Assembly: GCA_001462345.1 (NCBI GenBank)
Contig: LIUM01000046.1
Location: forward strand, 124,001-188,000
Length of the DNA stretch: 64,000 bases
Direction: 5' to 3'
Source: Fibrobacteria bacterium AD312
GTDB lineage: Bacteria > Fibrobacterota > Fibrobacteria > Fibrobacterales > Fibrobacteraceae
Part shown: piece by piece, positions 49,995-54,475 of the stretch
Layout of the letters: the number at the start of each line of letters is the position of its first letter
How positions within the stretch are numbered: position 1 is the first letter of the stretch
Notes under the pieces: generated by a model
Database searches by the model: none
Seen by the model: only the letters and a program-made list of their open reading frames with translations
What the model was told of the DNA's origin: nothing
Program-made: the position numbers and the translations under genes

Positions 49995-50016
49995 TTCTTA
50001 AATCTTTATTATTTAC

Positions 50017-50045
50017 AACTCGCTTATCCGTAAGCGAGTTTTTTT
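50017..50045 (+). terminator. Terminator of glgP
   Basis: AACTCGCTTA (50017-50026) pairs with TAAGCGAGTT (50031-50040), followed by a T-run. A near copy follows the next gene at 50683. Confidence 0.9.
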
Positions 50046-50114
50046 ATAGAAAAGACATTTTATGTAATAATACGTGAGAAATGGCATTGTTTTATGCTTT
50101 TACAAGGTTACTCT

Positions 50115-50143
50115 TTGCAAAAAATCTTCTTTTTCGTTATTTT
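50115..50143 (+). promoter_or_regulatory. Candidate promoter of the first Ser-rich lipoprotein gene
   Basis: TTGCAA (50115-50120) and TATTTT (50138-50143) are 17 bases apart. The same pair is preserved in the duplicated copy near 50784-50812. Confidence 0.45.
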
Positions 50144-50174
50144 ATCTATAGAATAATTTTTGGAGCTTAATGAT

Positions 50175-50660
50175 ATGAATATCAAAATAAAACACTTTCA
50201 AAAAAAAACTCCCTATTCTAGTAGTGGAAAAAACAAGCTTTTAGCAGCTCTTGGCTTAATGGCGTCTTTAGGTGTTTCTGGTTGTGATATTACAGAACAA
50301 CCTTTATCAGGTGATCCAGCTATGCCTGAAAGTTCATCTTCAGAAGAAGAACCAGAAGCTGGTGTTATTGCAATGCCTGAAAGTTCGTCTTCAAGTGATG
50401 TAATAGTAAAATTGGATACAATTCAACCGATATCTGGATCTATTATTTACGTAAAAGAATCTTCCTCTTCCACGTCTTCATCATCTTCAAGTGATGTAAT
50501 AATTGAAATAGTTCCACCTTTACCTTTGAGCGGTGTTATTCAAATAGAAATGCCTGAAAGTTCATCTTCAGTAGAAACGCCTATTCCTATGGGTGGTGTT
50601 CCCATTGACAGCACTGTTCCAATTGATGTAATAGAACCCATCAACACTGAAGAACCTTAA
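50175..50660 (+). CDS. Ser-rich repeat lipoprotein, copy A (possible radical SAM substrate)
   Basis: I start at ATG 50175 (MNIKIKHFQKKTPY), nine bases after GGAG. A leader of about 36 residues with LLAALGLMASLGVSGC ends in a lipobox. The mature 125 residues have no other Cys and are built of repeats: four ESSSS blocks (mostly MPESSSS), each preceded by a (S/A/G)G-x-(I/V) strand, with acidic spacers. It has no domain I recognise. The adjacent paralogue and the radical SAM/SPASM gene two genes downstream make it a candidate modified lipoprotein, an inference from context. Confidence 0.75.
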   Translation: MNIKIKHFQKKTPYSSSGKNKLLAALGLMASLGVSGCDITEQPLSGDPAMPESSSSEEEPEAGVIAMPESSSSSDVIVKLDTIQPISGSIIYVKESSSSTSSSSSSDVIIEIVPPLPLSGVIQIEMPESSSSVETPIPMGGVPIDSTVPIDVIEPINTEEP

Positions 50661-50682
50661 ACTTTAAATCTTATTCATTTAT

Positions 50683-50711
50683 AACTCGCTTATTTTTAAG
50701 CGAGTTTTTTA
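50683..50711 (+). terminator. Terminator after lipoprotein copy A
   Basis: AACTCGCTTA (50683-50692) pairs with TAAGCGAGTT (50697-50706), followed by a T-run. It is the duplicated version of the glgP terminator. Confidence 0.9.
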
Positions 50712-50843
50712 TTTCTAGAATAGCCATTTTATGTAATAATACGTGAGAAAAGGCATTGTTTTATGCTTTTACAAGGTTACTCTTTGCAAAAAATCTTCTT
50801 TTTCATTATTTTATCTATAGAATAATTTTTGGAGCTTAATGGT

Positions 50844-51368
50844 ATGAATATCAAAATAAAACACTTTCAAAAAAAAACTCCCTATTCTAGTAGTGGAAAA
50901 AACAAGCTTTTAGCAGCACTTGGTTTAGCTGCCTCTTTAGGTATTGCAGGTTGTGAAACAACATCAACATCAGGTGATCCAGTTATGCCAGAAACTTTGT
51001 CTTCGGCAGAAGTACCAGAAAGTTCTTCTTCAGAAGAACCTCCATTAGGTGGTGAAATTCAAATGCCTGAAAGCTCTTCGTCAACAGAAGTACCTGAAAG
51101 CTCATCTTCAATAAAAACTCCTATTCCTATAGGTGGTGTTCCTGTTGATCCAATTCAACCGTTGGCTGGAACTATTATTGAGGTTTATCGCTTTGAGTCA
51201 TCCTCTTCCGTGTCCTCCTCATCCTCAGAAGAACCTCCATTAGCTGGTGGAGTACAAATAATTGATAGTTCTTCTTCAACGGACTCCCCTAAAGCAGGTA
51301 TTGTCGAAATACCTGAAAGTTCATCTTCAACAAATGCTTCATTAGATGATGAGTCTCTCATCCTTTAA
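50844..51368 (+). CDS. Ser-rich repeat lipoprotein, copy B (possible radical SAM substrate)
   Basis: The start is ATG 50844, nine bases after GGAG as in copy A. The leader is nearly identical to copy A (KIKHFQKKTPYSSSGKNKLL) and ends in the lipobox IAGC. The mature part of about 140 residues has six SSSS blocks (for example MPESSSSTEVPESSSS and ESSSSVSSSSSEEPPLAGG) and shares IPIGGVPVD with copy A. No further Cys. It ends nine bases before the radical SAM gene with no terminator between, so the two are probably co-transcribed. Confidence 0.78.
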   Translation: MNIKIKHFQKKTPYSSSGKNKLLAALGLAASLGIAGCETTSTSGDPVMPETLSSAEVPESSSSEEPPLGGEIQMPESSSSTEVPESSSSIKTPIPIGGVPVDPIQPLAGTIIEVYRFESSSSVSSSSSEEPPLAGGVQIIDSSSSTDSPKAGIVEIPESSSSTNASLDDESLIL

Positions 51369-51377
51369 TTTTAAAAT

Positions 51378-52439
51378 ATGAATCTTGTTTTAAATCTTAC
51401 TGAACAGTGTAATTTACGCTGTTCCTATTGTTATTATAATCATCTTCAAGAAGAACGTTTTTGCTCAATGAATTTAAATATCTTAGAGCGTGCCATAGCT
51501 TATGGTTTTCAACGTTCTTTAGAATTAGGAGACTCTTTCTTAAACATCACTTTTTTTGGCGGAGAACCTCTTCTTAAAAAAGATCTCATCTTAAAAGGCG
51601 TTGACATTGCTAAAAAATACAAACCCGAAAAGATGAAACTTCAATTTGCCGTTAACACAAATGGGACCTTGATTAATTCTTTTTGGCTTGATTTTTTTAA
51701 GAAAGAAAACTTCTATTTGTATTTGTCTTTAGATGGTCCTGCAGAAATTCATGATAAACAAAGATATACTATTCGTAAACACGGTACTTTTGCACTCATT
51801 GAGCCTCACTTAAAAACGATTCGTCAACTGAATACCACTATTTTACGTGTAATCACTCATGACCATATTCAGGGATTAAGCGACTCTATCGAGTGGATTG
51901 TGAATCAAGGATTTACGAAAGTCACAACGGCTGTTGATTTTGATGGAAAATGGACATCAGATCATTTTAACGAGCTAAAAAAAGAGTACGAAAAAATAGC
52001 TTCTTATTGGGTCTCTCTTAAAAAAAAGAAACACCCGCTTTATTTAGGAACAATACAAGATAAAATCCGCTTAGAATTAGAAAGTACTTCTTATAAGAAA
52101 AAAACTTGCTCCATCCTGGAACGCATTCTTGCAGTTTCTGCGAATGGAACGTTGTTTCCATGTACTCGTTTTGTCTCTTCTAAACCTGATGCTTTATATA
52201 AAATTGGAACTGTTTATACAGGGATTGATGAATCCAAGACTCAAGAAATAAAATCCTTTTTAAAAAGTGATAAAGAAACTTGTAAAGAATGCGAATTAAA
52301 AAGTCGATGTGTGGGTAATGAATGCGGTTGTATTACTTTTTCAACAACCAATACCTTATCTAAAGTGTCTCCAGAAGTTTGTACTCATGAACGTATGCTT
52401 GCTTTAATTTGCGATGAAGCAGCAATGCAATTGATATAG
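51378..52439 (+). CDS. Radical SAM/SPASM peptide-modifying enzyme
   Basis: A 353-residue enzyme: radical SAM motif CNLRCSYCYYN at residues about 11-20, FFGGEPLL, NTNGTLI and SLDGP in the barrel, then a SPASM-like C-terminal domain with Cys at KKTCSIL, FPCTRF, ETCKEC, SRCVGNECGC and EVCTHERM. This architecture is shared by anaerobic sulfatase maturases and RiPP or lipoprotein maturases, which modify side chains of ribosomally made proteins. The two Ser-rich lipoproteins directly upstream are the obvious candidate substrates; the Bacteroidales rSAM/lipoprotein systems are a precedent as I recall them. No sulfatase gene is seen. Confidence 0.85.
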   Translation: MNLVLNLTEQCNLRCSYCYYNHLQEERFCSMNLNILERAIAYGFQRSLELGDSFLNITFFGGEPLLKKDLILKGVDIAKKYKPEKMKLQFAVNTNGTLINSFWLDFFKKENFYLYLSLDGPAEIHDKQRYTIRKHGTFALIEPHLKTIRQLNTTILRVITHDHIQGLSDSIEWIVNQGFTKVTTAVDFDGKWTSDHFNELKKEYEKIASYWVSLKKKKHPLYLGTIQDKIRLELESTSYKKKTCSILERILAVSANGTLFPCTRFVSSKPDALYKIGTVYTGIDESKTQEIKSFLKSDKETCKECELKSRCVGNECGCITFSTTNTLSKVSPEVCTHERMLALICDEAAMQLI

Positions 52440-54265: not shown

Positions 54266-54314
54266 CTAAAATTCATTCCCACAGGGGTATCATTACCACA
54301 AGGGTATCACTCTT

Positions 54315-54475
54315 ACTAAGCGCTAAAGCGCAAGTGTACGTGTTTCTCGCTAAGTACTAAAGTACTAAGCGCTCAAGCGCAAGTGTACGTGTTTCTCACA
54401 GCTCTGCATGGTTCCGACTAAAGCACTAAAAGTGCTAAGTCTCACGTAAAATGCTGAAGCATAAGCGTTCATGTT
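54315..54475. repeat. Array of short variable palindromes with a 34-bp direct repeat
   Basis: A 34-base sequence occurs at 54315-54348 and 54364-54397 with one difference; it holds AGCGCT(A/C)AAGCGC and then AAGTGTACGTGTTTCTC. Between and after the copies are further mini-palindromes of different sequence but the same build: AGTACTAAAGTACT, AGCACTAAAAGTGCT and ATGCTGAAGCAT. None has a T-run. No coding frame spans the block. Confidence 0.75.

Follow-up and report, generated by a model that had tools for sequence, protein, structure and literature searches.

A radical SAM/SPASM enzyme gene beside leader-bearing lipoproteins with repeated glycine motifs in Fibrobacteraceae: a candidate protein modification system

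Fibrobacter are major rumen cellulose degraders. In the window, by which we mean the whole 64,000-nucleotide stretch of DNA analysed here, ORF calls and direct reading place two tandem lipoprotein genes, A and B, ahead of a radical SAM/SPASM gene. The features of the locus are as follows.

49997..50174, + strand: upstream region of A, within the 88% identical block
50175 (ATG) to 50660 (stop), + strand: precursor lipoprotein A (161 aa); leader profile match E 1.4e-13
50175..50285, + strand: leader and signal peptide of A, MNIKIKHFQKKTPYSSSGKNKLLAALGLMASLGVSGC, from the leader profile; long conserved n-region, the proposed enzyme recognition segment
50301..50324, + strand: Gly motif A1, PLSGDPAM
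50352..50375, + strand: Gly motif A2, PEAGVIAM
50427..50450, + strand: Gly motif A3, PISGSIIY
50523..50546, + strand: Gly motif A4, PLSGVIQI
50586..50609, + strand: Gly motif A5, PMGGVPID
50663..50843, + strand: upstream region of B, within the 88% identical block
50683-50706, + strand: terminator-like stem AACTCGCTTA...TAAGCGAGTT between A and B
50844 (ATG) to 51368 (stop), + strand: precursor lipoprotein B (174 aa); leader profile match E 5.6e-15
50844..50954, + strand: leader and signal peptide of B, from the leader profile; differs from A by a few residues near the lipobox
50964..50987, + strand: Gly motif B1, STSGDPVM
51042..51065, + strand: Gly motif B2, PLGGEIQM
51126..51149, + strand: Gly motif B3, PIGGVPVD
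51159..51182, + strand: Gly motif B4, PLAGTIIE
51237..51260, + strand: Gly motif B5, PLAGGVQI
51288..51311, + strand: Gly motif B6, PKAGIVEI
51378 (ATG) to 52439 (stop), + strand: radical SAM/SPASM enzyme gene (353 aa), from the ORF call and family scans

The upstream DNA and the leader together form a duplicated block (about 49997-50356 versus 50663-51019) that is 88% identical over 363 bp, and the enzyme ATG lies exactly nine bases past the stop codon of B. A first-pass annotation of this DNA had reported tandem lipoproteins with near-identical upstream DNA and leaders, no cysteine past the lipobox and, nine bases further on, an intact radical SAM/SPASM gene; all of this is borne out. A stem identical to the one between A and B is also found downstream of glgP (50017-50040); since the same stem stands behind both glgP and A, B and the enzyme gene are probably one unit and A another. 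Elsewhere in the window (54280-54470), short repeated units of the form CTAAGTACTAAAGTACTAAGCGC... AAGTGTACGTGTTTCTC lie between an ABC-F gene and the next gene.

Lipoproteins A and B begin with the same leader/n-region and signal peptide, followed by lipobox Cys37, which is the single Cys of each protein, and then by five (A) or six (B) Gly motifs spaced by poly-Ser linkers. Every Gly of both mature proteins sits in a motif of the kind P-x-(A/S/T/G/P/L)-G-x-(P/I/V/L/M), with B1 starting STSG rather than P-x-x-G and A5 reading PMGGVPID. The first-pass annotation had taken ESSSS as the repeat unit, and [ED]SSSS units are indeed present (four and six in the two proteins), but the mature parts are better described as poly-Ser linkers alternating with Gly motifs, of which only the Gly motifs are common to relatives. 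The precursor leaders are unusually long, with the lipobox Cys at a median position of 37 versus 22.5 in 28 control lipoproteins taken from the same loci (p=8e-12). Neither A nor B has an NCBIfam match near cut-off (LppK only, 16 versus 125 bits), ten related precursors likewise gave none, and no tested precursor came near the cut-off of any Pfam or NCBIfam model.

The enzyme carries a CX3CX2C motif (Cys11/15/18) and a set of auxiliary-cluster cysteines in the SPASM region (Cys244, 262, 302, 305, 311, 316, 318 and 335), which place it in the radical SAM/SPASM superfamily; Pfam Radical_SAM scores 50.5 bits, above its cut-off, and Pfam SPASM 19.5 bits, below its cut-off of 21.5. Cys11/15/18 and the eight C-terminal cysteines are kept in 113-115 of 115 homologues. 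Because CX3CX2C begins at residue 11, the enzyme has no N-terminal recognition domain. The closest folds to its AlphaFold model (pLDDT 89.8, pTM 0.89) are CteB, anSME and the leader-binding maturase ChlB. Among solved structures CteB (SCIFF maturase, 5WGG) and ChlB (9GM3) are nearest, with TM-scores of about 0.79 at an identity of about 20-24%. ChlB was crystallised in complex with the leader region of its precursor, and CteB, which makes a Cys thioether, has a longer N-terminus than the window enzyme.

Three families to which the enzyme might be assigned were rejected. It scores 21.3 bits against TIGR04133 (cut-off 425), for which the genome holds two true loci elsewhere (600.6 and 560 bits), and A and B are not adjacent lipoproteins of the TIGR04133-matching NCBIfam family. 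The parallel with Bacteroidales radical SAM/lipoprotein pairs proposed in the first-pass annotation survives as an analogy, in that a SPASM enzyme lies beside a lipoprotein, and not as a family relationship. The best NCBIfam match is PapB (NF047865) at 229.6 bits, short of the curated cut-off of 340. PapB requires Cys-Xn-Asp/Glu sites in its precursor (PMC9413430), and these are missing from A and B, whose only Cys is that of the lipobox. PapB shares with the window system the SPASM architecture and a multi-site precursor with a leader, but the window core is Cys-free with Gly motifs and its precursors are exported lipoproteins. Anaerobic sulfatase maturases share the SPASM fold and modify proteins that are then exported, but the enzyme reaches 118 of 349 bits against TIGR03942, its partners are not sulfatases, and the position of anSME Asp277 is occupied by Thr263; of the 115 homologues, 79 have Thr here and 36 have Ser. 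In anSMEcpe this Asp (D277), which comes after the SPASM Cys, is the catalytic base. A match in WOR-3 (44% over part of the enzyme) was also set aside, being longer and from a different radical-SAM family, with no such precursor seen. Given that the enzyme falls outside TIGR04133, PapB and the anaerobic sulfatase maturases, that the precursors match no model, and that no description of this system was found in the literature searched, we file the pair as a SPASM maturase plus leader-bearing substrate.

Enzyme and leader are found together across the family. Of 111 Fibrobacteraceae genomes, 64 encode an enzyme homologue and 67 have a match to the leader plus signal peptide profile; both are present in 63 genomes, neither in 43, and five are discordant (Fisher p=6e-25). 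The sole genome with an enzyme and no leader match (G133) is a fragmented assembly estimated to be 74% complete. Leader-only genomes number four: G032, G024 and G017 have weak matches (E 0.0006 to 0.005), and G069, which is 84% complete, has a match at E 6e-7. Enzymes were divided into two classes by tree position and a reading of the downstream gene. Class I comprises 80 tree rows, and a precursor lies directly upstream of the enzyme in all 79 where the contig permits the check, including one (L186) whose precursor starts with TTG. The expectation that a lipoprotein with a KIKHFQKKTP-type leader would always be adjacent thus held in all of these assessable class I loci; together with the co-occurrence, this adjacency gives good support to reading the locus as an enzyme with two leader-bearing substrates. 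Where measured, the gaps between precursor and enzyme are mostly -4 or -1 nt, overlaps that suggest translational coupling, and two to five tandem precursors occur in 27 of 78 counted class I enzymes. In the loci read, no third gene accompanied the pair consistently. Leader-bearing orphans encoded far from the enzyme mostly have one or two copies of the Gly motif (EPLGGIVYIPD, GPTAGMPYYDY, DALAGIMEDSD), and one (L279) has none even by a looser pattern. Among the orphan leader proteins L289, L291, L292, L293 and L295 are some in which the hydrophobic segment is not followed by a lipobox Cys; these would be exported unlipidated or remain membrane-anchored.

The motif common to the precursors occurs 69 times in 72 non-redundant sequences versus 7.0 expected (maximum 18 in 500 shuffles), a count to be read with the knowledge that the pattern is loose, that it was spotted by eye and then counted on those same sequences, and that the shuffles ignore shared ancestry, for which the redundancy filter corrects in part. 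Per Gly, the precursors have it at a frequency of 0.141; for 575 other ORFs from these loci the figure is 0.0051, which makes the enrichment 27-fold. It is absent from the poly-Ser control lipoproteins, a small set of five. Checks on the motif that are more independent come from the spirochaetes, the orphans and class II.

In three spirochaete genomes, the enzyme stands behind 4, 7 and 6 tandem exported precursors (17 in total) whose conserved, folded mature domain is unrelated to the Fibrobacter mature parts. With few exceptions they have a long n-region followed, soon past the signal peptide, by a segment of the type PPLAGKPVYNP, KTAGVPVYNP or KTTLGEPVYNP. The pattern [KP]xxGx[IVPLM] is found near the signal peptide in 13 of 17 versus 2.6 expected (maximum 8 in 2000 shuffles), the 17 precursors being mutually related and so not 17 independent observations. 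The leaders resemble those of Fibrobacter with an hhalign probability of 86%, a likeness that is no more than suggestive and is owed in part to the shared hydrophobic signal segment. These arrays (L103, L299 and L300) have in common a domain with the sequence IEFxADGYNxxxKIAYEWV, which gave no Pfam or NCBIfam match for the one protein tested, and they are flanked by a HydF-like GTPase gene.

Class II is a clade of 34 enzymes that has good support in the tree, is nested within class I and has no leader lipoprotein. A small Lys/Ala-rich protein is encoded 11-40 nt downstream of all 34, and G-(I/L/M/V/Y)-P is kept in these partners; among 27 non-redundant ones, it occurs 14 times versus 2.3 expected. 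The P-x-x-G form is not enriched in the class II partners, whose motif is related to that of class I and not identical. This derived clade, having lost the lipoprotein, has switched to Lys-rich downstream proteins that are apparently cytosolic. The window genome has one class II paralogue (L031, 5242-6944). A class I subclade (L158, L182, L205, L216 and relatives) has precursors whose conserved C-terminal tail reads SMVTTFE..DI, in most cases close to a Cys, and which also contain VDIPLSHE segments; for about a dozen of its enzymes the precursors have no P-type motif. Target or chemistry in this subclade may differ from the rest. As a general target the SMVTTFE tail was rejected, since the window clade, the spirochaetes, class II and most orphans do not have it.

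We consider it probable that the locus encodes a self-contained modification unit, in which the enzyme reads the leader in the cytosol and modifies the Gly motifs before the proteins are exported. The observed basis of this mechanism is the gene order, the conservation of the leader, the co-occurrence, the common motif and the intact cluster cysteines; from these we infer that the partners are substrates, the motif the target and the leader the recognition element, with modification taking place before export. The enzyme would recognise the long conserved N-terminal segment of the prolipoprotein, MNIKIKHFQKKTPYSSS, and act on the P-x-(A/S/T/G/P/L)-G-x-(P/I/V/L/M) motifs at or next to Gly, while the poly-Ser stretches would serve as flexible linkers separating the modified sites. 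Export would then follow the usual Sec and lipoprotein pathway, with cleavage and lipidation at Cys37, and the modified motifs would end up exposed at the cell envelope. As in RiPP systems, a conserved leader and a variable core lie beside a modifying enzyme; no dedicated protease or exporter of the RiPP type was seen in the window neighbourhood, and export is explained by the predicted Sec/lipoprotein signal. Since the mature parts of A and B have no Cys beyond the lipobox, the bond change at the motifs would be Cys-independent, for example a cross-link, an oxidation or an epimerisation. The lipobox Cys itself was discarded as a target, as it is absent from class II partners, several orphans and several spirochaete precursors.

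The lipoproteins could alternatively be envelope partners or regulators of an enzyme that acts elsewhere. Although the substrate role of A and B is one that we infer from sequence, we regard this alternative as unlikely: a conserved leader joined to a variable repeat core is substrate-like, the precursors form tandem arrays of up to five in Fibrobacter and seven in spirochaetes with orphan copies elsewhere in the genome, one clade has a different partner with a related motif, and no other constant gene accompanies the pair in the loci read. Ranthipeptide-type chemistry, with a PapB- or CteB-like enzyme making Cys thioether cross-links, is quite unlikely, even though PapB is the top NCBIfam match, CteB the nearest fold, and many precursors of the SMVTTFE-tail clade have a conserved Cys near Asp or Glu. 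The PapB score is below cut-off, and PapB needs both Cys and Asp/Glu (PMC9413430), whereas the window mature proteins have no Cys except the lipidated one and some spirochaete precursors are entirely Cys-free (G135_3). To judge by the composition of A and B, the modification at the window motif sites cannot be a Cys thioether; such chemistry could yet operate in the tail clade.

The first-pass annotation had favoured Ser or neighbouring residues of the ESSSS units as the target, a reading that has in its favour the frequency of ESSSS in both window lipoproteins and in most Fibrobacter precursors. This is very unlikely in view of the wider set. The closest relative (enzyme 73% identical, L035 in genome G007) has a precursor without ESSSS, no spirochaete precursor contains it, and class II partners and several orphans lack it as well, whereas a Gly motif is common to nearly all of these ESSSS-free cases; poly-Ser is also found in lipoproteins without such an enzyme alongside. 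Oxidation of Ser to a formylglycine-type product, the chemistry of anaerobic sulfatase maturases, would fit the shared SPASM superfamily, a fold TM-score of about 0.8 and the abundance of Ser, but is highly improbable with Thr or Ser at the Asp277 position in 115 of 115 homologues, no C/S-x-P/A-x-R sulfatase motif, and no sulfatase found beside the homologues, which the first-pass annotation had named as the neighbours that would count against its proposal.

Returning to modification at the Gly motifs, we lean on balance towards a previously undescribed system, in which a leader fused to a signal peptide would guide repeated modification at Cys-free Gly motifs before secretion and so yield envelope proteins with modified residues in series along Ser linkers, with a derived clade switched to Lys-rich, apparently cytosolic proteins and with unrelated exported domains served in spirochaetes. 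To our knowledge, most radical SAM/SPASM maturases act on small peptides or catalytic proteins. If true, our reading would extend SPASM chemistry to the Fibrobacter envelope and to the multi-copy decoration of exported lipoproteins, with the leader fused to the signal peptide. The motif predicts sites in a small set of expressible precursors, which makes the question directly testable.

Two likenesses to other systems may serve as leads. The PlpX splicease, a radical SAM enzyme, acts on a single precursor repeatedly, at XYG (PMC10373908), and repeated action at a short Gly-containing motif would be a feature common to both systems; unlike the PlpX sites, the window motifs have no Tyr before Gly, and no PlpY partner was seen. 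The second lead concerns the two TIGR04133 loci of the genome, whose partner lipoproteins have Y-G-V-(P/F) motifs that resemble the window G-x-P motif. At one locus (L264 701-1375, G000:C12:6713) the partner lipoprotein has LYGVFY/LYGVP repeats with poly-Ser linkers, and at the other (L265 1013-1477, G000:C49:29886) it has AEYGVPYAIF.
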